NCBI RefSeq assembly: GCF_000166415.1
Contig: NC_014654.1
Coordinates: forward strand, 62,001-126,000
DNA length: 64,000 bases
Reading direction: 5' to 3'
Source: Halanaerobium hydrogeniformans
GTDB taxonomy: Bacteria; Bacillota; Halanaerobiia; Halanaerobiales; Halanaerobiaceae
The notes below the pieces were generated by a model, which ran no database searches, was not told the origin of the DNA, and was given only the letters and a program-made list of their open reading frames with translations. Position 1 is the first letter of the stretch; every line of letters begins with the position of its first letter. Below, piece by piece: positions 7,000-31,282 of this stretch. Position numbers and translations under genes: made by a program.

Positions 7000-8061
7000 T
7001 TGGGAACTTATATGACATATATTTTATATTATTCATTAGCAGTAATTCCTGTCTTTTTAGATTCTAAAAGCCAAAAGTATAATTATAATAAGATTTTATT
7101 GTTTATTTCATACTTATTTTTATGGTTTTTTGCTGCTTTTAGATATGATGTTGGAAGTGACTATTTTTCATATATAAGAATGTATAATAAAATAGGCAGT
7201 AGAGGAATAAGCTGGGCATTAAGTTCTGTGAGAACTGAACCTTTGTATGCAATTTTTAATTGGATAATATATAATGTATTTGAAAATCATAATTTAGTTT
7301 TTGTGCTTAGTTCAACAATTTTATTATCTTTGATTTTTTCAGTGATTATAAAAAACAAAAATAAATTATCTGTTGGTTTAAGTTTATTTTTATTTGTTAC
7401 TACTTTTTATTTGTCTATGTTTACATTTATTAGACTTTCAATTTCTGCAGGAATTATATTTTATTCTTATGAGTATTTAGTTAACAGGAATCCAGTCAAA
7501 TATTTTTTCTTAATAATTTTAGCTATAGGATTTCATTTTACAGCTATTGTAATGTTGCCAGTTTATTTTATAGTTGATAAAAGACTTAAATTTTTTGTTT
7601 TAAAATTTTTGTTTGTATTAATATTTGTGGCTGCTGCTCTAATGCTATTTACTTTTTTTGTAGATATAATTGGTGGTTTTCTTGGTTATGAATATGCTCA
7701 TAGAGTTGGTAATATTAGAGGAGGTATTAATCAATTAATATTATTTAGTCCAATATTTATTTTTATATTTATTTTTAGAAAAAGATTAATATTATATAAT
7801 TCTAAAAATATAATATATACTCAAATATTTTGGCTTGGTTCAATATTAATGCTGTTTACTTTATGGCTTGGAATTCTTGATAGAATGGCTGTTTACTTTC
7901 AATTTAGTATTATATTATTAATACCTCAAATATTTAAGGTGATGAATAATAAAGAGAAGATTATTTTCCCATATCTTATAGTATTATACTTTTTACTGAG
8001 ATTTTCATATAGCATATTTGGTAATATGAGCTTGATTCCTTATGAAAATATTATATTTTGA
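7000..8061 (+). CDS. EpsG/Wzy-like polysaccharide polymerase
   Basis: A 353-residue, very hydrophobic protein with about ten membrane segments. The signature FAAFRYDVGSDYFSYIRMYNKI near residues 45-65 is that of the EpsG family, which is thought to polymerise lipid-linked repeat units outside the membrane in exopolysaccharide synthesis. The TTG start at 7000 follows AAGGTG (6987-6992); ATG 7012 is an in-frame alternative. It is the first intact gene after the IS3 insertion, so the operon's original upstream genes and promoter have probably been displaced. Strongly AT-rich codons set it apart from the dehydrogenase downstream. Confidence 0.8.
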   Translation: MGTYMTYILYYSLAVIPVFLDSKSQKYNYNKILLFISYLFLWFFAAFRYDVGSDYFSYIRMYNKIGSRGISWALSSVRTEPLYAIFNWIIYNVFENHNLVFVLSSTILLSLIFSVIIKNKNKLSVGLSLFLFVTTFYLSMFTFIRLSISAGIIFYSYEYLVNRNPVKYFFLIILAIGFHFTAIVMLPVYFIVDKRLKFFVLKFLFVLIFVAAALMLFTFFVDIIGGFLGYEYAHRVGNIRGGINQLILFSPIFIFIFIFRKRLILYNSKNIIYTQIFWLGSILMLFTLWLGILDRMAVYFQFSIILLIPQIFKVMNNKEKIIFPYLIVLYFLLRFSYSIFGNMSLIPYENIIF

Positions 8062-10023: not shown

Positions 10024-11163
10024 TTGAATAACAAGAATATAAAAATAACTTATGTTATCACAACTTTAGGTTTAGGTGGGGCTGAGACTTTACTTTATAA
10101 TACTCTTAGAAAAATAGATAGGAATAAATTCGAACCTTTAGTTATATGTTTGATTGAAGGTTCTAATGAATTAGCTGATGATATAGAAAATAAATTAGAT
10201 ATAAAAGTTTATAAACTTAATATGAAAAACAAATTAGATATTAGAAAAATATATTCATTATATAAAATCATTAAGAAAGAGAACCCTGATATTATTCACT
10301 CCCATCTATATGCAGCAAATATTTTAAGTAGAGTAATTGGAAAATTAACATCTGCTCCAGTTATTATCTCAACTATACATAATTCAGTCTTTGGAGGTAA
10401 GTTAAGAGAAATTTCTTTAAAATTTACTGATAAGTTTTCAAGTTTAAATACTATTATTTCAGATAAGGCAGCATCAAACGCTATTAAAATGAATATTACA
10501 AATAAAGATAAACTTAAAGTTATTTATAATGGTGTAGATGTGGAAGTATTTGAAGATTATTCCCAGATGGCTGAAAGGAAAAAAATTATTAAAGAGCTAA
10601 ACTTAGAAAATGATATACCAATATTATTGTCTGTTGGAAACTTATCTAAACAAAAAGGATATCCTGTTCTATTTAAAGCCTTGGAAAAATTAAAGGATAA
10701 GAATAAATCATTCTATTTATTAATAGCTGGTAAAGGTAAGTTAGAAAATCAATTAAAAGAGTTAGTTAAAAAATATGATATGAAAAATGAGATATACTTT
10801 TTAGGAACTAGAAGAGACATACCTCAATTAATGGCTGCTGCTGACTTTTTTGTTATGAGCTCTCACTGGGAAGGTTTACCTGTGGTACTTTTAGAAGCAA
10901 TGGCTTCAGGTCTTCCTGTTATATATACAAATGTTGGCGGAGTAGGTCAAGTAATTGATAGTAATTTTGGATATCTTGTTACGCCTGATGATGAAAATGA
11001 ATTAGCTGATAAAATTATTGAGATGATAAATTTGTCTGACTCAGAGAGAAATAAAATGGGTGAATATGCCAGGGGAAAAGTTAAAAGAGAATATAGTATT
11101 GATAATATGGTTGAGAACTTTGTGAAACTTTACGATGAATTAATGCAAAGGAAGGTGAAATAG
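10024..11163 (+). CDS. GT4-type glycosyltransferase
   Basis: About 379 residues. The N-terminal acceptor domain reads KITYVITTLGLGGAETLLYNTL; the C-terminal donor domain reads SVGNLSKQKGYPVLFKAL, LIAGKGKLENQL and HWEGLPVVLLEAMASGLPVI with the E(x)7E catalytic signature. The start chosen is TTG 10024, because CAGGAGG lies just upstream (10009-10015); the longer frame from ATG 9949 would overlap the kinase gene and lacks a ribosome binding site. The stop overlaps the next gene's start (TAGTG), suggesting translational coupling. It transfers an unknown sugar to the repeat unit. Confidence 0.85.
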   Translation: MNNKNIKITYVITTLGLGGAETLLYNTLRKIDRNKFEPLVICLIEGSNELADDIENKLDIKVYKLNMKNKLDIRKIYSLYKIIKKENPDIIHSHLYAANILSRVIGKLTSAPVIISTIHNSVFGGKLREISLKFTDKFSSLNTIISDKAASNAIKMNITNKDKLKVIYNGVDVEVFEDYSQMAERKKIIKELNLENDIPILLSVGNLSKQKGYPVLFKALEKLKDKNKSFYLLIAGKGKLENQLKELVKKYDMKNEIYFLGTRRDIPQLMAAADFFVMSSHWEGLPVVLLEAMASGLPVIYTNVGGVGQVIDSNFGYLVTPDDENELADKIIEMINLSDSERNKMGEYARGKVKREYSIDNMVENFVKLYDELMQRKVK

Positions 11164-12482
11164 TGAAAATACTTAAATCAAAAATCAAAAACAAAACAGC
11201 TCAAACAGCAGTCATCGGTCTCGGTTATGTAGGCCTGCCATTGTCTGTAGAGATAGCAAATTCAGGTTACAATGTAACCGGTATAGATATAGATCAGGAA
11301 AAGGTAGAAAGACTTAATAAGGGAGAATCATATGTTTTAGATGTTGGTGATGAGAAGTTAGATAAAATATTAGATAATGGTAAGTTTAAAGCAACAACAG
11401 ATTACACTCAGATAGCTGATTGTGATGCAATTAGTATTTGTGTGCCAACACCATTACGGAAGACAAAAGATCCAGATACGACTTTTATAATCTCTGTTGT
11501 TGATAAATTAATTGAATACATGACAGTGGATACATTGATTATTCTTGAAAGCACTACATATCCAGGGACAACTGAAGAATTAATCCAGAACCGTCTTGAA
11601 GAAGAACTAGGATTTAAGGCAGGAGAAGATTTTTATCTCTGTTTCTCACCGGAAAGAGTAGATCCAGGCAATAAAGTTTATGGAACCCATAATACTCCTA
11701 AGGTTATAGGTGGAACAACACCTGAAGGATTAGAACTTGCTCAGGATTTTTATGGTTCTTTTTTAGAGGAAATAGTACCTGTGAGTTGTACAAATGTTGC
11801 TGAAACGGTTAAGCTATTGGAAAATACTTTTAGAAGTGTTAATATAGCATTAGTTAACGAGATGGCTATGATGTGTGAGAGGATGGGTATTGATGTCTGG
11901 GAAGTAATAGATGCAGCAGCTACTAAACCATTTGGTTTTATGCCATTTTATCCAGGTCCTGGTATTGGAGGGCACTGTATTCCATTAGACCCAACCTATT
12001 TATCCTGGAAGGCAAAGACTTATGATTTCTATAATAAGTTTATTGATCTTGCAAGTGATATTAATGGTAATATGCCTCGCTTTACAGTCAATAAAGTTGC
12101 AGATATTTTAAATGAAGTTAAAAAACCGATTAATGGTTCAAAGATACTGCTTTTAGGTATAGCCTATAAAGCAGATATAGATGATTTAAGAGAATCACCA
12201 GGTTTAGAATTATATCGCCTTCTTGAAAGCAAAGGAGCAGAAGTCGATTATTACGATCCATATGTTGATAGCTTTGATAATGCCGGTGAAATAGTTAAAG
12301 GAATAGATTTAGATGAAGATATTATTAAGGATTATGACTTATCAGTCCTTGCTACTAATCATTCTAATTTTGAATATAAATGGCTGGCTGAGAATGCAGA
12401 CTTAATCTTAGATACTAGAAATGCCTTTACTGGAATAGAAAAAGAGCATATTTATAAATTAGGTGCACCGCTAAATAATTAA
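11163..12482 (+). CDS. UDP-sugar 6-dehydrogenase (WecC/WbpA/TviB type)
   Basis: A 439-residue nucleotide-sugar dehydrogenase: NAD-binding Rossmann motif GLGYVGLPLSVEIA (residues about 18-31), a central helical domain with the catalytic Cys in PGPGIGGHCIPLDPTYLSWKAK (about residues 255-275), and a C-terminal UDP-binding domain (LLLGIAYKADIDDLRESPGLEL). It oxidises UDP-hexose or UDP-N-acetylhexosamine to the uronate with 2 NAD+. The HCIPLDPTYLSWKAK wording favours the UDP-GlcNAc/ManNAc group over classic UDP-glucose dehydrogenase. The neighbouring epimerase suggests a 4-epimerised uronic acid product. GTG start, with AAGGTGA just upstream. Base composition is visibly higher in GC than in the glycosyltransferase genes. 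Confidence 0.85.
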   Translation: MKILKSKIKNKTAQTAVIGLGYVGLPLSVEIANSGYNVTGIDIDQEKVERLNKGESYVLDVGDEKLDKILDNGKFKATTDYTQIADCDAISICVPTPLRKTKDPDTTFIISVVDKLIEYMTVDTLIILESTTYPGTTEELIQNRLEEELGFKAGEDFYLCFSPERVDPGNKVYGTHNTPKVIGGTTPEGLELAQDFYGSFLEEIVPVSCTNVAETVKLLENTFRSVNIALVNEMAMMCERMGIDVWEVIDAAATKPFGFMPFYPGPGIGGHCIPLDPTYLSWKAKTYDFYNKFIDLASDINGNMPRFTVNKVADILNEVKKPINGSKILLLGIAYKADIDDLRESPGLELYRLLESKGAEVDYYDPYVDSFDNAGEIVKGIDLDEDIIKDYDLSVLATNHSNFEYKWLAENADLILDTRNAFTGIEKEHIYKLGAPLNN

Positions 12483-17028: not shown

Positions 17029-17694
17029 TTAATATTTTTCATCTAACTTTTTCATATCATTTTCAAGTTCTTCATCGACCAGATGAGTATAAATCATGGT
17101 AGTTTGAATACTGCTGTGGCCTAAAGTTTTCTGTACCTTCCTCAAATCATTAGTCATTCTATATAATTCGGTAGCAAAGGTATGTCTTAGAACATGAGGG
17201 CTTACCTTCTTCTGCCAATAAGTCTCTTCTAATTCCTTTCCTTCCTCATCTCTATAATTTTTTTCTACTTCTTCTTGAATACCAGTTTTTTCTGCATAGT
17301 TATAGACCATTTTCCTTACATTAGCTTCATTAAGTTTTTTTCCAGCAAGAGAAGTGAAAACTAGATTGTTTTCATTTTCTAAATTCTTTTCAGCTAAAAC
17401 TTTATTTTGCCGTTCTCGCCACTTGCCAAGTTGATTTAAAGTTTTTTCTCCCAGCCATAAGTTTCTATCTTTTCTTCCTTTACCTTCGACAATTGATAAT
17501 TTAGCAGCAGGAAAATTAATATTGTTCCATTTTAAATTTAAAGTTTCTCCCAGTCTTAATCCAGCTTTCAGCATTAACCTGATCATAGTTTTATTTCTCA
17601 AGGCAGTTGGATATCTTTCGTTGAAAACTTCCAATAATTGCTTTTGTTCTTCCTCCCTTAGTACTTCAGGTATTCTTCTCCCTCTTTTTGGCAT
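17029..17694 (-). CDS. Short tyrosine recombinase/integrase
   Basis: A 221-residue tyrosine recombinase consisting almost only of the catalytic domain: Arg47 in AGLRLGE, the Lys of the β-hairpin in GKGRKDRN, His167 and Arg170 in HVLRH, His193 in LGHSSIQTT and the nucleophile Tyr202 in MIYTHL. The usual N-terminal SAM-like core-binding domain is missing, which is seen in some plasmid and integron-like recombinases but could also mean 5' truncation. The start is GCC-AAA-preceded ATG (complement 17692-17694) with AAGGAG upstream. It sits at the left edge of a plasmid/phage-like gene block and could be its integrase or a resolvase. Confidence 0.85.
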   Translation of the reverse strand: MPKRGRRIPEVLREEEQKQLLEVFNERYPTALRNKTMIRLMLKAGLRLGETLNLKWNNINFPAAKLSIVEGKGRKDRNLWLGEKTLNQLGKWRERQNKVLAEKNLENENNLVFTSLAGKKLNEANVRKMVYNYAEKTGIQEEVEKNYRDEEGKELEETYWQKKVSPHVLRHTFATELYRMTNDLRKVQKTLGHSSIQTTMIYTHLVDEELENDMKKLDEKY

Positions 17695-17734
17695 TTTGCA
17701 GTTTCAACTCCTTTTTACTCTATTTTCTATATAA

Positions 17735-17810
17735 TAGTGTTATATTCACATCATATTTTTAGTTTATCAGCCTTGATACCTTTTGGCAAGAAATTAGTGT
17801 TATATTCACA
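17735..17810. repeat. Pair of 16-bp direct repeats upstream of the recombinase gene
   Basis: TAGTGTTATATTCACA occurs perfectly at 17735-17750 and 17795-17810, exactly 60 bp apart, just before the recombinase start. Each copy is itself a loose palindrome (GTG...CAC). They could be recombinase arm sites, an autoregulatory operator, or part of an attachment site. Confidence 0.6.
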
Positions 17811-17910: not shown

Positions 17911-18003
17911 AGAAAAGAAACGACAAGGGATACTTTAATTGATTGGTATCGTGAACATGCTCAAGAAAAAATTAATGAGCGAAATGAGCGAGTAGAAAAA
18001 TAG
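17911..18003 (+). pseudogene. C-terminal scrap resembling a sugar-nucleotide epimerase/dehydratase
   Basis: A short open stretch reading RDTLIDWYREHAQEKINERN to the stop at 18001-18003. The TLIDWYREH wording is like the C-terminal end of NDP-sugar epimerases/dehydratases (compare RFIDWYREYYGF at the end of the 12508-13521 gene). No upstream part survives. It may be what is left of a deleted polysaccharide gene at the edge of the mobile element. Confidence 0.3.
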
Positions 18004-19103: not shown

Positions 19104-19212
19104 AAAAAAGTTGGATGTCGTTCTTAAATTATCACTTTTAATTTATACTTAATTTAAGAAATGGACAAAAGACAAAAAAAGATGAAATAAAAAAAGTTGG
19201 ATGTCGTTCTTA
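19104..19212. repeat. Perfect 23-bp direct repeats before the XRE regulator
   Basis: AAAAAAGTTGGATGTCGTTC followed by TTA is present at 19104-19126 and again at 19190-19212, 86 bp apart. They flank the likely promoter region of the small HTH gene, and the second copy is about 70 bp before its start. They are candidate operators or origin-type repeats. Confidence 0.6.
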
Positions 19213-19278
19213 TATGCTTTTATATATTTTATAATTAATTACAGAAAGGTCAAAGGACAAATGGGGGAGGTGAAATCG

Positions 19279-19479
19279 ATGGAAAATAATTTAAAGGAAA
19301 TTAGAGAGCAAAAAGGTTTATCTCAGTTAAAATTAAGTTATGAAACTAGAATATCTCCACCAGATATATCTAAAATTGAGAGGAATAAAATTTTTCCTCA
19401 TCCAAAATGGAGAGAAAAAATAGCAAGGGTATTAGAAGTTGAAGAGAAAGATATTTTTCCTGGAATAGATAAAGGTTAA
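19279..19479 (+). CDS. XRE-family helix-turn-helix regulator
   Basis: A 66-residue single-domain HTH_3 protein: LKEIREQKGLSQLKLSYETRI is helix 1-2, SPPDISKIERNKIFP the recognition helix, and WREKIARVLEVEEKDIFP the closing helices. The start is ATG 19279 behind GGGGGAGGTG; the longer frame from 19201 has no ribosome binding site and would read through the direct repeat. It probably represses the replication genes downstream or itself through the repeats at 19104-19212. Confidence 0.85.
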   Translation: MENNLKEIREQKGLSQLKLSYETRISPPDISKIERNKIFPHPKWREKIARVLEVEEKDIFPGIDKG

Positions 19480-19544: not shown

Positions 19545-20003
19545 ATGTTAAACGAAAAAGCAAAAAGTATTTTCATTGAAACTATGGAAGCAATTAAAAC
19601 TCAGGAGTTTATTTTGAACAATAAAGATGGTGATTTTTTCGGGAAAGTTTGTTGCGGCCAAGAAAAAGTAGTCTCACGTGATAAAAAAACTGGAAAGGAG
19701 AGATTTATTTGCGAGGAAGAACTATTAATCGATCCCATCAAAAATACTTATCAGTGTAATAAATGTGGATCAAAAGGAACAATAATTGAATGGTATAGTA
19801 AAGCGCACGGCTGTAATTTTTCAGAGAGCATCCAATATATCAATGATTATTACAATTTGAATTTGTTAAAAGATATTGATGAGTCAAATATGAATAGAAT
19901 AATGAAGCTGGTTGAGAATTATAACGATTTATATATTAAAAGCCTCGAGATTGATTCTTTATTAATTATTATAGATGATTTGGTAAATATTTTTAGTTTT
20001 TAG
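19545..20003 (+). CDS. Small CHC2-like zinc-finger protein, paralogue 1
   Basis: 152 residues. The centre resembles the zinc-binding domain of DnaG-type primases: CC (about residues 37-38) and later YQCNKCGSKGTIIEWYSKAHGCNFSESIQYINDYYNL, i.e. CxxC followed by the G-(T/D)-x-I-x-(F/W) ribbon and the helix that normally leads to the primase core. There is no TOPRIM or catalytic domain, so it is a stand-alone finger. It is related to 23453-23959 and to the remnant at 24315-24548, which flank the primase-helicase gene. It may be a template-recognition subunit or regulator of that enzyme (inference). ATG after AAAGGAGAGATATT. Confidence 0.75.
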   Translation: MLNEKAKSIFIETMEAIKTQEFILNNKDGDFFGKVCCGQEKVVSRDKKTGKERFICEEELLIDPIKNTYQCNKCGSKGTIIEWYSKAHGCNFSESIQYINDYYNLNLLKDIDESNMNRIMKLVENYNDLYIKSLEIDSLLIIIDDLVNIFSF

Positions 20004-20054
20004 AACTAAAAATTGCTAAGAAAAAATGAATTGAATGGTATTAAAGATATAATC

Positions 20055-20276
20055 AATTATTAGGGCATTGTTTTCAATGGATATAGAGGTGGTTTAATTA
20101 TGAATTTAATAAAAAAATAAGCCTACCTTCCTGTAAAGGTAGACTTATATAGAGTAAAACTCTTAAATCTATTATACCAGATAACTTAGGAAAGATTCAA
20201 TAAAAGTTAAGCAAAACACTCTAATGCCCTAATTTTGATTTATTAAAAATAAATCTAAAATTAGGAGGAAACAAAA
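20055..20276 (+). promoter_or_regulatory. Structured leader of the primase-helicase gene
   Basis: Several pairings are visible. (1) CCTAATTTT-GATTTATT (20228-20244) pairs with AATAAATC-T-AAAATTAGG (20248-20265), one bulge; its base includes AGG, the first half of the Shine-Dalgarno AGGAGG (20263-20268). (2) ATTAGGGCATT (20059-20069) is perfectly complementary to AATGCCCTAAT (20223-20233), which overlaps the first arm, so the two folds exclude each other. (3) A small ORF MNLIKK (20100-20120) has its own AGAGGTGG. (4) Its stop overlaps an 11-bp hairpin AAGCCTACCTT/AAGGTAGACTT (20119-20146). This has the architecture of an on/off translational switch. Confidence 0.6.
20100..20120 (+). CDS. Putative six-residue leader peptide
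   Basis: ATG AAT TTA ATA AAA AAA TAA (MNLIKK) with AGAGGTGG seven bases upstream. The stop codon sits at the foot of the 20119-20146 hairpin. A ribosome here could alter the folding of the leader before the primase-helicase start. No other evidence of translation. Confidence 0.35.
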   Translation: MNLIKK

Positions 20277-23200
20277 GTGAGTAAATTAATAAAAAACTGT
20301 AAAATAAAAGAAATATCAAACAATGCAAATATCAAAGAAATTATTGAAGAAGATGTGGGATCATTAAAAAAAGAATCAACTAATAATTATAGCGGCTTCC
20401 ATAAAAACAAACATGCTTCTGAAAGTAAAACTTCATTAAAGGTAAACACTGATAAAGGAGTTTATTATTGCTTTAACTGTGGTGAAGGAGGAAATGCAAT
20501 TACATGGCTAATGGCAAATAGAAGTATGGGATTTTTAGAAGCAGCCCAATATTTAGCTGCAAGATATGACGTTGATATTGGAGATTTAAGTGAAGAGGAA
20601 TTGGAAAAAATAAAAAAGTTTCATCAAGAAAAAGAAATGATATATGAAATATTTACAATAGCCGCGGAAATTTATAACAGTCAGTTAAGAGAAGAACACT
20701 ATCACTTATTAAAAAACAAATGGGGTATAACAAAAGAAACTGCAGATAGTATTAATATCGGCTATGCTCCAAGTGATGGTAATTTTCTTTTAAGAAAATT
20801 ACTAAAGAAGGGTTATAGTCAAAAAGATCTCAAAAAAACAGGCCTATTTATAAAAAAATATGATTTTTTTCAGGGACGAATCATATTCCCTTATCAAAAA
20901 AATCATAAGGTAGTGTTTTTTATAGGACGAAAAACAAAACACACACCTGATAAAAAATGGGAGAGAGGAAAGTATAAGAAACTGCTTACTCACTCTGACA
21001 AGAGAAAATATATTAGTTCTGTAGTAAAAAATGAACATTTATTTGGTGTAGATAGTCTCAGTAATACAGAGGCATTAATAATTACCGAAGGTATAACAGA
21101 TGCTATTACAACTATACAGGCCGGATACTCCTGCATATCACCAGTTACAGTTCAATTTCGTAAAAAAGATTATAAAAAACTGGAATCAATAGCTGAAAAA
21201 GCAAAAAAAATATATATTGTGAATGATAATGAAGAAAGTGGTGCCGGCAGGAAGGGAGCATTAGAGACTGCTCGATATCTTCATAAAAAAGGTCATAAAG
21301 TTTATATAGTTGAGCTGCCTAAACCAGAAGAGGTATCAAAAATCGATCTTGCTGATTATTGGAAAGATCATAATAAAGATGATTTTGAGAAATTGCTCAG
21401 AGAATCAAATAATCTAATGGATTTAGGTATTAAGAAAATAAAGCAAGCTTCCTATGATGAAAAAATAACTGCTGCTGAAAGTGTTTACCCTTTATTTGCG
21501 GGGTTAGGGGATATTGAAAAAGATAGATATATCAAAAAGATAAAGGAAGCTTTCGGTAATGATGTGCGAATTAAAACTATAAGGGGAAAGATTAATGAGG
21601 TTATAAATAAAAAAGAAAAGAAAGAAAATACTAATGATATTAAATCTGAAGAATCTACTAGTAATACATCTCCTATTCCAAGAATTAGAGAATCATCTAG
21701 CGGGTATTTTTATGTGGAAAGAGATTCAGAAAATGATTCTGGAGAAATAATTTATATATCAAATTTCATTTTGAATATAGATACTATATTAAGAAATCAA
21801 GATGGTAAAGAAATAATTTCGGGGGACATATTATATTACGATAAAAATAAAGAAGAAATCAATTTAGATTCCAACGCATTTATTTTGAGTAAAAACTTCA
21901 AAGAAGAACTGCCTAATAAAGCTATTTGGACAGGCAATAGTACTCAATTACAACAGATTAAAGTAAATATATATGACAATAATCCTGTGTCAAAAAAAGC
22001 TGTAGAATTGGCTGGAAGATATGATAATCAAATATTGCTTCCAGAAATAACCTTAAGTAAAAATGGTATTGTAGAAAGAGCAGATAAAGTTGTTATCAAT
22101 CTAAAGAACAATCATTTGTTATCGAAAATGCCTAAAAAAATGCCAGACCAAAGTGAACATATGAGAGCAGCTGAAAATATTTATAAATATCTTCCTAGAA
22201 TAAATGAGCCTGTCATAGCTGGTGCTATAACTTCTTGGTCTTTTGCTTTACCCTGGTGTGATCTAATAAGGAATAAATTAAGTTGGGGTGGCTTTCCCCA
22301 CTTAATTCTTTACGGCGAAGCCGGTAGTGGTAAAACTCAGAGTGCTAAGTTAATCTGGCGGTTAAATGGTATAAGTCAAGATAATGAGCCTTTTTCTTTG
22401 CCTAATACACGTTTTACAAGACTGAATAATTACTCGAGCAGCAATTTAATACCGGTTTTTCTTGATGAATACAGACCAAGTGCATGGAGCGGTTATAGAT
22501 CTAGACAAATTCACGAAGAATTAAGAAATATTTATAATAAAAATGCTGCTGAAAGAGGAAGAGCAGATCTTACGACTAAATCTTTTTCTTTAGCTGCCCC
22601 GATTATTTTATGTGGAGAAGATAGACCTAGAGACACAACAGGCTTAGAAGAAAGGATGATAATTCTTAATCCTAATAAAGATATAGTTGATGGAAACAAT
22701 AATCAATATGGTGATATATGCAAGAAAAACTTTAATAAATTGCAGAAAGCTCCTTTAGAAGCTTTTGCTCTACCATACTGGAAGTGGTCTTTAGCTCAAG
22801 AAAATTGGGAGGAAAAGCTCGAAAAAGCAAGAGGTGAAATAATAATTTGGAAGGAAGATGAACAGCTTACTATACCTGAACGATTGATTAATAATTTAGC
22901 TATATTAAAGTTTGGATGGTGGATGTATTTAAGTTATGCAGAAGAATTAGACATTGAACTTGATGAAGAAATTTTAATTGAGGCTGAGTTAAATGCAGTA
23001 CTTAAGAGTGTTTATTATAATGTGATGCCAGAAGGACGGCATTTTAATGAGTTTGATGAATTGATTGTTTTTCTAAATACCATGGTAAACAACAGTAAAT
23101 TGTATTCTAGAATTCATTATACTATCAAAAATAAGAATACTTTAATTTTGAGACTGCCTGATATCTTACCGATAGCTAAAGAATTTGCACATAAAACACA

Positions 23201-23405
23201 AAGAAGTAGAGAGCTCCTCGGAATAGATGCATATCGATCGATCATTAGAAGGCTCGAAGAAGACCCCAATTCATATGTGTTATCAAGCAGTGACAAAGGA
23301 TCGTTTAGAAAAAGTGGAGACAGCTATTGTGAATTAAGAGGAGTAGCTTTAGATATGGATAAATTAGAAGAACAACTAAAGATAGAACAGGAAATTTGGT
23401 CATAG
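20277..23405 (+). CDS. Primase-helicase: CHC2-like finger + TOPRIM + AAA/DUF927-like ATPase
   Basis: 1042 residues. The N-terminal zinc-finger-like part reads SGFHKNKHASESKTSLKV then YYCFNCGEGGNAITWLM (C65, C68, H42); Ser39 stands where the first Cys of C-P-F-H is expected, so the metal site is altered. A DnaG-like core follows (WGITKETADSINIGYAPS; GRIIFPYQ), then a TOPRIM domain (ALIITEGITDAITT, IYIVNDNEESGAG, residues about 265-320). The C-terminal half has Walker A GEAGSGKT at 680-687 and Walker B VFLDEYRP, as in replicative helicases of plasmids and phages. It would prime and unwind the element's DNA. GTG start behind AGGAGG, which is partly held in a hairpin. Confidence 0.85.
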   Translation: MSKLIKNCKIKEISNNANIKEIIEEDVGSLKKESTNNYSGFHKNKHASESKTSLKVNTDKGVYYCFNCGEGGNAITWLMANRSMGFLEAAQYLAARYDVDIGDLSEEELEKIKKFHQEKEMIYEIFTIAAEIYNSQLREEHYHLLKNKWGITKETADSINIGYAPSDGNFLLRKLLKKGYSQKDLKKTGLFIKKYDFFQGRIIFPYQKNHKVVFFIGRKTKHTPDKKWERGKYKKLLTHSDKRKYISSVVKNEHLFGVDSLSNTEALIITEGITDAITTIQAGYSCISPVTVQFRKKDYKKLESIAEKAKKIYIVNDNEESGAGRKGALETARYLHKKGHKVYIVELPKPEEVSKIDLADYWKDHNKDDFEKLLRESNNLMDLGIKKIKQASYDEKITAAESVYPLFAGLGDIEKDRYIKKIKEAFGNDVRIKTIRGKINEVINKKEKKENTNDIKSEESTSNTSPIPRIRESSSGYFYVERDSENDSGEIIYISNFILNIDTILRNQDGKEIISGDILYYDKNKEEINLDSNAFILSKNFKEELPNKAIWTGNSTQLQQIKVNIYDNNPVSKKAVELAGRYDNQILLPEITLSKNGIVERADKVVINLKNNHLLSKMPKKMPDQSEHMRAAENIYKYLPRINEPVIAGAITSWSFALPWCDLIRNKLSWGGFPHLILYGEAGSGKTQSAKLIWRLNGISQDNEPFSLPNTRFTRLNNYSSSNLIPVFLDEYRPSAWSGYRSRQIHEELRNIYNKNAAERGRADLTTKSFSLAAPIILCGEDRPRDTTGLEERMIILNPNKDIVDGNNNQYGDICKKNFNKLQKAPLEAFALPYWKWSLAQENWEEKLEKARGEIIIWKEDEQLTIPERLINNLAILKFGWWMYLSYAEELDIELDEEILIEAELNAVLKSVYYNVMPEGRHFNEFDELIVFLNTMVNNSKLYSRIHYTIKNKNTLILRLPDILPIAKEFAHKTQRSRELLGIDAYRSIIRRLEEDPNSYVLSSSDKGSFRKSGDSYCELRGVALDMDKLEEQLKIEQEIWS

Positions 23406-23452: not shown

Positions 23453-23959
23453 ATGGAAATAGAAAAGTTTTCTTTTTGTTCTGAAAAAGCAAAAGGAATT
23501 TTTAATAAGATAATAGAAGGTACGGATCTATCAGAATTAGCTCATGATTTTTGGAAAAATAGAGGAACAGGTATTTTTGATTACAAGATTCCTTGCTGCT
23601 TTGAGGATATATCTTCCGAAGGAAATGGAGAAATAGTTGTTCATCGTTTTAAAATATATAGAATAAGTGATAATAATAAATATTATGAATGTAGTGGATG
23701 TGGCACTAAAGGAACTATAATTAACTGGTACAGAAATTTTATGGATGTTTCATTAGTTGAAACTTTTGAATTTCTTGATGAATATTTTCAATTAGATCTA
23801 TACAATATTACAGACCTGGATAATTCTATAAAATTTATTATAATTAACAATATAAGAGATTTGAATAGAAAATATATTGAAAGTGAATGTCCAGATATTC
23901 ATGAAATAAGTAAGATTGTGTTTTCTGATGAAGATCCTTTTGCTTCAATTCAAAAGTGA
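23453..23959 (+). CDS. Small CHC2-like zinc-finger protein, paralogue 2
   Basis: 168 residues. It shares with 19545-20003 the core YECSGCGTKGTIINWYRNFMDVSLVETFEFLDEYFQLDLY (CxxC at about residues 82-85), plus an upstream pair IPCCFED. The C-terminal acidic tail (RDLNRKYIESECPDIHEISK) also matches the paralogues. There is no catalytic domain. It lies 47 bp after the primase-helicase with AAGGAG before its ATG, so the two are probably co-transcribed, and it directly precedes the iteron-like region. Role unknown; primase accessory factor is an inference. Confidence 0.75.
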   Translation: MEIEKFSFCSEKAKGIFNKIIEGTDLSELAHDFWKNRGTGIFDYKIPCCFEDISSEGNGEIVVHRFKIYRISDNNKYYECSGCGTKGTIINWYRNFMDVSLVETFEFLDEYFQLDLYNITDLDNSIKFIIINNIRDLNRKYIESECPDIHEISKIVFSDEDPFASIQK

Positions 23960-23972
23960 TTAAAGTATAATA

Positions 23973-24258
23973 GTGTCGGTTCTACAGTTATTCGACACAT
24001 AATCTACACCTTGAATTAATTGTTATATCAGTCTTTATAGTACTTTTATATTAATATCGACACATAATTATGTATAACTATATAGTAAATAAAAAAAGGG
24101 GTATATACATTTTAACACCAGTTATTATATACCCCTTTAAATATTTATATATATTGTGCTACCCCCTCTAAAAAAGTGTCGATGATTAAAAATGCTTTAA
24201 AATGCTGTCATGACAGTGATTAAGGTGTTTTTAGGATGTGTCGATATCGACACTTTTT
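23973..24258. other. Candidate replication origin / iteron region
   Basis: Contains GTGTCG (23973), TCGACACATAAT (23992-24003) and TCGACACATAAT (24057-24068), GTGTCGAT (24176-24183) and the 16-bp perfect palindrome GTGTCGATATCGACAC (24238-24253). AAAAAGTGTCGAT (24171-24183) and ATCGACACTTTTT (24246-24258) form a 13-bp inverted repeat enclosing a CTGTCATGACAG palindrome (24205-24216) and two AAAATGCT repeats. A 13-bp perfect hairpin AAAGGGGTATATA/TATATACCCCTTT (24095-24138) lies between. Repeated motif plus AT-rich DNA plus adjacent primase-helicase suggests an origin; a partition or repressor site is the alternative. Confidence 0.55.
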
Positions 24259-24314
24259 GAAAATCTAATGTTAATTAAACGATATATAATAAAAAACTAA
24301 AAAGAAGAATTTAA

Positions 24315-24548
24315 AATGGCCAGAAAAAATTGACTATCATTGATTGGTGTAGTCAGTTTATGGATTTATCTATAGCTGATACAATAAAATATATTGCTGA
24401 ATCTTGTAATTTAGATTTATATGATATTGAGAGTTTAGATGATTATGATAAGTATGAGGTTGTATTTGCTGTTAGAGAGCTAAACAGGGAATATCTAGAA
24501 AAAAAGAAATTTCAAATCAAAACATTGTATAAGTATAGTGTAAGATAG
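24315..24548 (+). pseudogene. N-terminally truncated zinc-finger paralogue 3
   Basis: From about 24315 one frame reads NGQKKLTIIDWCSQFMDLSIADTIKYIAESCNLDLYDI to the stop at 24546-24548. It aligns with CGTKGTIINWYRNFMDVSLVETFEFL of the preceding gene, but the CxxC half is missing and the CG ligand region is lost (NGQKK). Only a TTG at 24330 could start it, without a ribosome binding site. It appears to be a broken duplicate whose 5' half was replaced by the origin-like region. Confidence 0.65.
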
Positions 24549-30400: not shown

Positions 30401-31282
30401 GTGAATAAAAAATTAAATTTATCCATAATTTGTTTGATTTTTATATTAATTTTAACTGGTTGTGCTAACGAAGAAAGCAATAATGACGTTAATTTATCAG
30501 ATGAAGAAAGCAATAATGACGTTAATTTATCAGATATAGAAAATCCATATGGGGAATCTCCTATTACATTAAGAAATATAATAACAGAAAAAACAGAATA
30601 TTTGGGAGAAAAAGTAGTAGTAGGACCAGTCGTTGTTCAGTATCATAATGTTGAAAGAGGTTCATATACAGTTTATCCTATATTAGGTTTTTATAAAAAT
30701 CTTGGAACTCCTCAAAGTGATAGGGATGTGTCGATAGAAGTTTTTTATGATAATGTCGAGAATAAAAGTAAGTGGATAAATCTAAAAACATCTGATGATC
30801 CGATTATTTTTTTAGAGGGGCAAATTAATTTTTACTCAAATAATAATAAGCCTTATATTTATGCTATAGATATTAAACAGTATGATTATAATAATCATAA
30901 AAATAGAGATGATAAAATTTCAGATATAGAAAATCCATATGGGGAATCTTCCATTACATTAAGAAATATAATAGCAGAAAAAATAGAATATTTGGGAGAA
31001 GAAGTAGTGGTTGAACCAGTCGTTGTTCAGTTTCATAATATTGAAAGAGGTTCATATACAGTTTATCCTATATTAGGTTTTTATGAAAATCTTGGAACTC
31101 CTCAAAGTGATAGGGATGTGTCGATAGAAGTTTTTTATGATAATGTCGAGAATAAAAGTAAGTGGATAAATCTAAAAACATCTGATGATCCGATTATTCT
31201 TGTAAAGGGTGTAGTACTTTATTACTCAAATAATAATAAGCCTTATATTTATGCTATAGATATTAAACAGTATGATTATTAG
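30401..31282 (+). CDS. Lipoprotein with an internal tandem duplication
   Basis: 293 residues. A signal peptide with lipobox LILTGC puts it on the outer face of the membrane. Next come two copies of EESNNDVNLSD, then two nearly identical domains of about 118 residues, each starting SDIENPYGES(P/S)ITLRNII and ending KPYIYAIDIKQYDY. The repeat period is exactly 390 bp (130 codons) and the DNA copies differ at only a few sites, so the duplication is recent. Within a copy, the β-rich pattern with GxxVVV..PVVVQ(Y/F)HN resembles an OB-like fold, but no family is recognised. ATG after AAGGGGG. It sits between decayed genes at the edge of the element. Confidence 0.8.
   Translation: MNKKLNLSIICLIFILILTGCANEESNNDVNLSDEESNNDVNLSDIENPYGESPITLRNIITEKTEYLGEKVVVGPVVVQYHNVERGSYTVYPILGFYKNLGTPQSDRDVSIEVFYDNVENKSKWINLKTSDDPIIFLEGQINFYSNNNKPYIYAIDIKQYDYNNHKNRDDKISDIENPYGESSITLRNIIAEKIEYLGEEVVVEPVVVQFHNIERGSYTVYPILGFYENLGTPQSDRDVSIEVFYDNVENKSKWINLKTSDDPIILVKGVVLYYSNNNKPYIYAIDIKQYDY
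30530..31279. repeat. 360-bp tandem repeat, 390-bp period, within the lipoprotein gene
   Basis: Copy 1 is about 30530-30889 and copy 2 about 30920-31279. Long stretches such as the 30718-30790 and 31108-31180 segments are identical, and the variant positions cluster in two places (around the VVVGPVVVQ and FLEGQINF codons). A shorter 33-bp duplication (EESNNDVNLSD codons) lies just upstream at about 30469-30534. Confidence 0.85.

Follow-up and report, generated by a model that had tools for sequence, protein, structure and literature searches.

Two competing folds in the leader of the primase-helicase gene

What controls the primase-helicase gene in the window (the whole 64,000-nt stretch of Halanaerobium hydrogeniformans DNA analyzed here)? 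A sequence-only reading of its leader, 20055-20276, had drawn two mutually exclusive structures and a six-codon ORF and proposed an attenuator- or riboswitch-type control of replication-protein synthesis, possibly copy-number control, that no known feature family would explain. The parts of the leader are as follows.

20048-20053, plus strand: candidate -10 box TATAAT of the leader, located by inspection; its -35 region is poor and it falls under the scan threshold; predicted transcription start at about 20059-20062
20059-20069, plus strand: 5' arm of an 11-bp long-range helix, the proposed pre-emptor; exact complement of 20223-20233
20223-20233, plus strand: second (3') arm of that helix, sharing 6 nt with the 5' arm of the Shine-Dalgarno (SD) hairpin
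20228-20265, plus strand: SD-sequestering hairpin, from folding energy and pair probability
20263-20268, plus strand: SD sequence AGGAGG of the primase-helicase gene, from the sequence
20277-23405, plus strand: 1042-aa primase-helicase, likely replication initiator, with a CHC2 zinc ribbon, DnaG core, Toprim and a C-terminal Walker A motif (GEAGSGKT)

The perfect match that the sequence-only reading described is present: over 11 bp, ATTAGGGCATT (20059-20069) and AATGCCCTAAT (20223-20233) are exact reverse complements. Among dinucleotide shuffles of 20055-20276, 3.3% contained a perfect inverted match of 11 bp whose arms lay 20 nt or more apart, and 0.2% contained one with at least four G/C; sliding 222-nt windows over the real 64 kb gave 38/1276 and 12/1276, respectively. 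The match is unusual, not overwhelming. The SD hairpin, CCTAATTTTGATTTATT-AAA-AATAAATCTAAAATTAGG, has a folding energy of -12.4 kcal/mol, and the stretch 20223-20276 that contains it folds with z = -5.3. As had been claimed, half of the SD sequence (the AGG of AGGAGG) is paired within this hairpin, and the two structures do exclude each other, since they compete for positions 20228-20233. In free-energy folding, proposed earlier as a check, the leader (20050-20290) outdid every one of 200 shuffles (z = -3.1).

In the equilibrium fold of the complete leader the SD-masked form prevailed, with a probability of about 0.98 for the SD hairpin and about 0.02 for the 11-bp helix. When the transcript was folded as it grows, the 11-bp helix had a probability of 1.0 at all the 3' ends sampled between 20230 and about 20264, and the balance tipped to the SD hairpin only once its second arm was complete. 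This folding order suits a pre-emptor, and thus a switch, because the open form is made first and the closed form is the more stable one. Since no T-run follows the SD hairpin, it would be a translational device. The terminator scan found no plus-strand terminator in the leader; transcriptional attenuation is therefore unlikely and was discarded. Nor was there a sign of a ligand riboswitch: Rfam gave no family at gathering score in the window and only chance-level matches at E <= 10, which removes a known RNA family or riboswitch from the list of candidates. Of the proposed attenuator- or riboswitch-type control, what stands is a leader that regulates replication-protein synthesis and possibly copy number.

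A transcript start downstream of 20069, which would leave out the first arm, was not indicated. The promoter scan found no sigma-70-like plus-strand promoter within 20070-20276, and the TATAAT box predicts a start upstream of that limit. The leader promoter itself is weak on paper. The window has no tRNA or tmRNA. The leader is single-copy in the genome (one contig, 2,613,117 bases), so the idea of a MITE or similar repeat with the 11-bp arms at its ends was also discarded.

A predicted antisense-RNA gene on the opposite strand

The opposite strand had been overlooked. There, a third hairpin of the leader reads as a strong intrinsic terminator, of 14 unbroken pairs and a T-run, with a promoter behind it.

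20171-20200, minus strand: antisense promoter TTGAAT-18-TATAAT with TGG before the -10 box, from the promoter scan
20110-20164, minus strand: predicted antisense RNA of about 55 nt with two hairpins, start about 20164 and end about 20110, from the promoter and terminator scans and the fold
20151-20163, minus strand: small 5' hairpin of the antisense RNA, AGAGU-UUU-ACUCU, from folding
20117-20148, minus strand: antisense-RNA terminator of the intrinsic type, a 14-bp stem with an ACAG loop and a T-run at 20116-20107; its plus strand is the target hairpin

The terminator reads ATAAGTCTACCTTT-ACAG-GAAGGTAGGCTTAT, then TTTTTTATT, on the minus strand. Its stability is -17.1 kcal/mol on that strand versus -11.1 on the plus strand, where two of its pairs turn into A-C mismatches. 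Directly upstream of it lies the motif TTGAAT-18-TGGTATAAT (20200-20171), with 10 of 12 consensus matches and an extended -10. The predicted RNA (AAGAGUUUUACUCUAUAUAAGUCUACCUUUACAGGAAGGUAGGCUUAUUUUUUU) folds at -21.0 kcal/mol (z = -5.7) into the small 5' hairpin and the terminator hairpin. It would be fully complementary to the leader, with 99 nt between 20164 and the SD at 20263.

When promoters with a strong terminator close behind were sought under strict settings, this unit was the sole match in 64 kb, both strands, where shuffles gave 0.1 matches per 64 kb, and a relaxed scan returned 7 matches versus 2.1 in shuffles; as the thresholds were picked after the site was seen, these figures are a guide and no formal test. 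Between genes at 29264-29204, the minus strand has another promoter-like motif (TTGAAA-16-TATAAT) near a hairpin that resembles a terminator.

A predicted antisense unit in a comparable locus

Relatives were sought among viral contigs, genome contigs, phages, plasmids and about 1,090 whole genomes. Only one comparable locus was found, L040 (G029:C24), from another family of the same order. Its primase-helicase is 49% identical to that of the window over the whole length, an XRE-type gene (7430-7648) lies upstream of the leader as in the window, and Gam-like, RecT, RadC and ArdC-like genes lie downstream in both loci, the similarity in L040 being judged by eye. The two leaders share no appreciable sequence. 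Even so, an antisense unit emerged from the relaxed scan on the minus strand of L040, with its promoter (TTTGCA-18-TATAAT) at 7813-7784 and its hairpin at 7750-7709; 18 kb gave two such sites in all. The T-run of this unit is weak and its promoter was first spotted by eye. The unit sits in the same place as in the window, between the XRE gene and the primase-helicase gene, with a hairpin of unrelated sequence whose stability is -27.6 on the minus strand versus -18.8 on the plus strand. Both hairpins are far more stable on the minus strand because the wobble positions, five of five over the two loci, are G-U there and A-C on the plus strand, as expected if selection acts on a minus-strand RNA.

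The 11-bp arms, which the sequence-only reading expected to be conserved or to covary in relatives, have no counterpart in this only comparable one: L040 has no perfectly complementary stretch of at least 7 nt between leader and SD region and no strong SD-masking hairpin, and its leader folds with z = -0.97. The pre-emptor step is therefore not conserved, as far as one relative tells. The antisense unit thus appears as the feature common to both loci, and the 11-bp/SD switch is so far specific to the window copy. A 32-codon ORF at 7754-7852 of L040 overlaps the primase-helicase start, and its weak SD and start codon lie under the predicted antisense RNA; it could be a coupled leader ORF. A second locus, L062 (G421), has a different gene order on a 3.9-kb contig where the upstream gene runs straight into the primase-helicase gene, with no comparable leader. 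The relaxed scan found no promoter-terminator unit in the distant relatives L063-L067.

We consider it likely that the antisense RNA exists and probable, with somewhat less assurance, that it inhibits the primase-helicase gene.

The replicon around the leader

The protein encoded behind the leader joins a DnaG-type primase to a Walker-A ATPase domain and is not a RepA_N protein. A search of solved structures by sequence found no significant relative (best E 0.056). For its C-terminal half, single-sequence structure prediction gave a mean pLDDT of only 31, and a tblastn search of the plasmid collection returned one archaeal plasmid record only. Two further features complete the locus.

19279-19479, plus strand: 66-aa XRE-type HTH protein in a Cop-like position, candidate Cop (Pfam HTH_19/HTH_3, PHROG repressors)
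23966-24263, no strand: probable origin of the iteron type, with six copies of GTGTCG/CGACAC to either side of an A+T-rich stretch

The cluster follows the primase-helicase gene after a zinc-ribbon ORF. GTGTCG/CGACAC (23973-24253) is the most clustered G+C-rich 6-mer of the 64 kb, with 6 of its 10 copies within 300 nt, and L040 has an equivalent downstream of its primase-helicase gene, six TGTCTC/GAGACA copies at 11000-11262 beside an A+T-rich stretch. The cluster of the window is probably an iteron-type replication origin. It also contains a 22-bp imperfect hairpin. Read in this way, both loci have a plasmid-replicon layout: a cop-like gene, a leader under predicted antisense control, an initiator and an iteron origin.

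Other observations concern the surroundings. A direct repeat, GTTGGATGTCGTTCTTA, at 19104-19161 and 19190-19247 precedes the XRE gene and is possibly the operator of the XRE repressor. The element carries a tyrosine recombinase gene (17029-17694, minus strand); two copies of TAGTGTTATATTCACA at 17720-17810 adjoin this integrase gene and are possible recombinase binding sites. CHC2-type zinc-ribbon ORFs resembling the primase N-terminus were found at 19545-20003, 23453-23959, 24330-24548 and about 17932-17952. Two intact ones flank the primase-helicase gene, the third looks truncated at its start and of the fourth only a remnant is left; they are possibly primase fragments, accessory or duplicated. 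A lipoprotein-like ORF at 30401-31282 is built from a 300-nt unit present twice, with 94% identity and a spacing of 390 nt. Today the element sits in the chromosome, and it may be a resident remnant that has lost autonomous replication.

Proposed mechanism

On balance we favour, with fair confidence, the reading of the region as the regulated leader of a replication-initiator gene in a plasmid-like integrated element, under countertranscript control of replication-protein synthesis. From the computed features (arms, hairpins, minus-strand promoter and terminator motifs, folding order and the antisense unit in one relative) we infer a course of predicted events, from the making of an inhibitory antisense RNA through the pre-emptor step to a role in copy number. 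The minus-strand promoter (20200-20171) would drive the RNA of about 55 nt ending at the 20148-20117 terminator, and this RNA would pair with the leader about 100 nt upstream of the SD. In the nascent message, the arm 20059-20069 would pair with 20223-20233 while the SD hairpin still lacked its 3' arm; the SD would stay open and the primase-helicase would be produced. With many copies of the element, abundant antisense RNA would prevent or undo the pre-emptor pairing, and the SD hairpin would close; primase-helicase synthesis, and hence copy number, would fall.

That inhibition runs by this pre-emptor route is a tentative proposal drawn from known systems. Folding with the antisense-covered bases blocked gave no shift in the pre-emptor/SD balance or in SD exposure, in a calculation that ignores the stiffness of a 55-bp duplex and kinetics. 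The coupling between antisense RNA and pre-emptor therefore rests on analogy.

The six-codon ORF and other readings of the leader

The six-codon ORF noted by the sequence-only reading (ATG AAT TTA ATA AAA AAA TAA, MNLIKK-stop; 20100-20120, plus strand) does have its own SD, AGGTGG (20087-20092, plus strand), 7 nt upstream, and does end on the third hairpin, which contains its stop codon. An SD plus ORF of such kind is present in 4.3% of leader shuffles. By analogy with R1 or ColIb-P9 the ORF could add ribosome-dependent control, and within the proposed mechanism it may tune the response through a ribosome holding the target hairpin open.

The good SD of this ORF, the position of its stop codon and the pairing of its SD region in the full leader fold would also suit a switch without antisense RNA, in which translation or stalling on MNLIKK selects between 11-bp helix and SD hairpin in an attenuator-like manner and the minus-strand terminator motif is incidental. 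However, MNLIKK lacks a long run of one regulatory codon, and blocking the leader region for a ribosome left the predicted pre-emptor/SD balance unchanged. Such a switch would also leave unexplained why there is a promoter on the minus strand, why the hairpin is biased to that strand and why L040 has an antisense unit too, and we regard it as unlikely.

An arrangement of the IncI-alpha type would retain the antisense RNA and have it act mainly through the leader ORF, whose translation would unfold the leader so that long-range pairing activates the main gene, as with RepY and the pseudoknot of ColIb-P9. Both ColIb-P9 (Inc RNA/repY/repZ) and R1 (CopA/tap/repA) combine an antisense RNA, a short leader ORF and a hidden main ribosome binding site; their leader ORFs are longer than six codons and act by translational coupling, and ColIb-P9 has a loop pseudoknot. 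The parts agree here in the short ORF, the antisense RNA complementary to its 3' part and the long-range pairing by the main SD. In a forced fold, however, the long-range helix is nested around the folded leader with no loop-based pseudoknot, and the antisense RNA leaves the SD and start codon of the leader ORF uncovered. We consider this variant improbable.

Similarly low is the chance that the minus-strand terminator is a mere insulator against stray antisense transcription from the primase-helicase gene, with a promoter match due to chance in A+T-rich DNA. Promoter-like matches alone are indeed no commoner in the window than in shuffles (81 versus 74.5), but a promoter with a close terminator is rare, and the combination recurs at the same place in L040 with a different sequence.

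Least probable is a reading of the two arms as DNA sites bound by either the XRE protein or the replication protein, with no RNA switch: the first arm lies at the predicted transcription start beside TATAAT (20048-20053), the second upstream of the antisense promoter, and in the forced fold the match continues imperfectly into DNA upstream of the transcript (AATCAA/TTGATT), but the 10-mer TTAGGGCATT has no other copy in the element with up to one mismatch and the XRE gene itself is preceded by different repeats (19104, 19190).

Comparison with known countertranscript systems

Countertranscript control remains the preferred reading, and the general mark of that class, an antisense gene with its own promoter and terminator signals inside the rep leader, appears to be present. 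The claim that no known family explains the leader does not hold: the anatomy matches the countertranscript-controlled rep leaders of Gram-positive plasmids, and the part that had been overlooked, the predicted antisense-RNA gene, is the part shared with L040.

In staphylococcal RepA_N plasmids such as pSK41, a two-hairpin antisense RNA (RNAI) pairs about 100 nt upstream of the translation start of rep and tips the competition to a hairpin that masks the ribosome binding site without a terminator T-run (PMC5703833). We take pSK41 as the closest working model because here, too, the last hairpin has no T-run, the predicted antisense RNA has two hairpins and it would pair 99 nt upstream of the SD. 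The two differ in the initiator (RepA_N in pSK41, a primase-helicase here), in the length of the antisense RNA (about 83 nt versus about 55 nt), in the short leader ORF added here and in the host, staphylococcal plasmids versus a Halanaerobiales chromosome; the likeness is one of anatomy, with no sequence relation established. In pT181 (RNAI) and pIP501 (RNAIII, CopR) a pre-emptor competes with the 5' arm of the last hairpin, as proposed here, and in pT181 the antisense RNA tips this competition towards a terminator (PMC5703833). The last hairpin of those two systems is a transcription terminator with a T-run, whereas here it has none. Two other likenesses are an XRE-type protein gene upstream in pIP501 and an origin downstream of rep in pCH91-type plasmids (PMC5703833). 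Judged by its parts, the leader belongs neither to the pSK41 family, from which the initiator type separates it, nor to the pT181/pIP501 attenuators, from which the missing terminator does.

The RNAII/repB system of pMV158 resembles the locus in its very short antisense RNA, 48 nt long and finishing in its own terminator hairpin, and in a block to initiator translation and a dual control by protein and RNA (both only proposed here); it differs in that RNAII has one hairpin and pairs directly by the repB start, the initiator is of the rolling-circle type and there is no pre-emptor (PMC4485353). The likeness in initiator is found in pSYSA of Synechocystis, where an abundant antisense RNA, asRNA1, lies opposite a small ORF directly upstream of the primase-helicase CyRepA1 and is linked to copy number (PMC9978351). 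There, however, asRNA1 is 153 nt long, the ORF is of Rop-like size, not six codons, and the model is ColE1-like priming with RNase E (PMC9978351).

The locus may represent a distinct Halanaerobiales replicon family, defined by an XRE Cop-like gene, an antisense leader with pre-emptor and six-codon ORF, a fused DnaG primase-helicase and a downstream iteron origin, in which countertranscript control was independently recruited to the primase-helicase initiators of integrated elements, with a fast-diverging RNA sequence; we offer this as a speculative, rather doubtful extension. If true, antisense-RNA copy control would extend to integrated elements replicating with a fused primase-helicase, and the compact set of cop-like gene, antisense leader, initiator and iterons could serve to construct a minireplicon in a group of anaerobes for which the plasmid collection searched gave no close relative of the initiator. 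Each RNA step of the model is open to single-mutation tests. Most likely, the leader exerts an antisense copy control of a known general kind on a type of initiator, the primase-helicase, for which such control has rarely been described.
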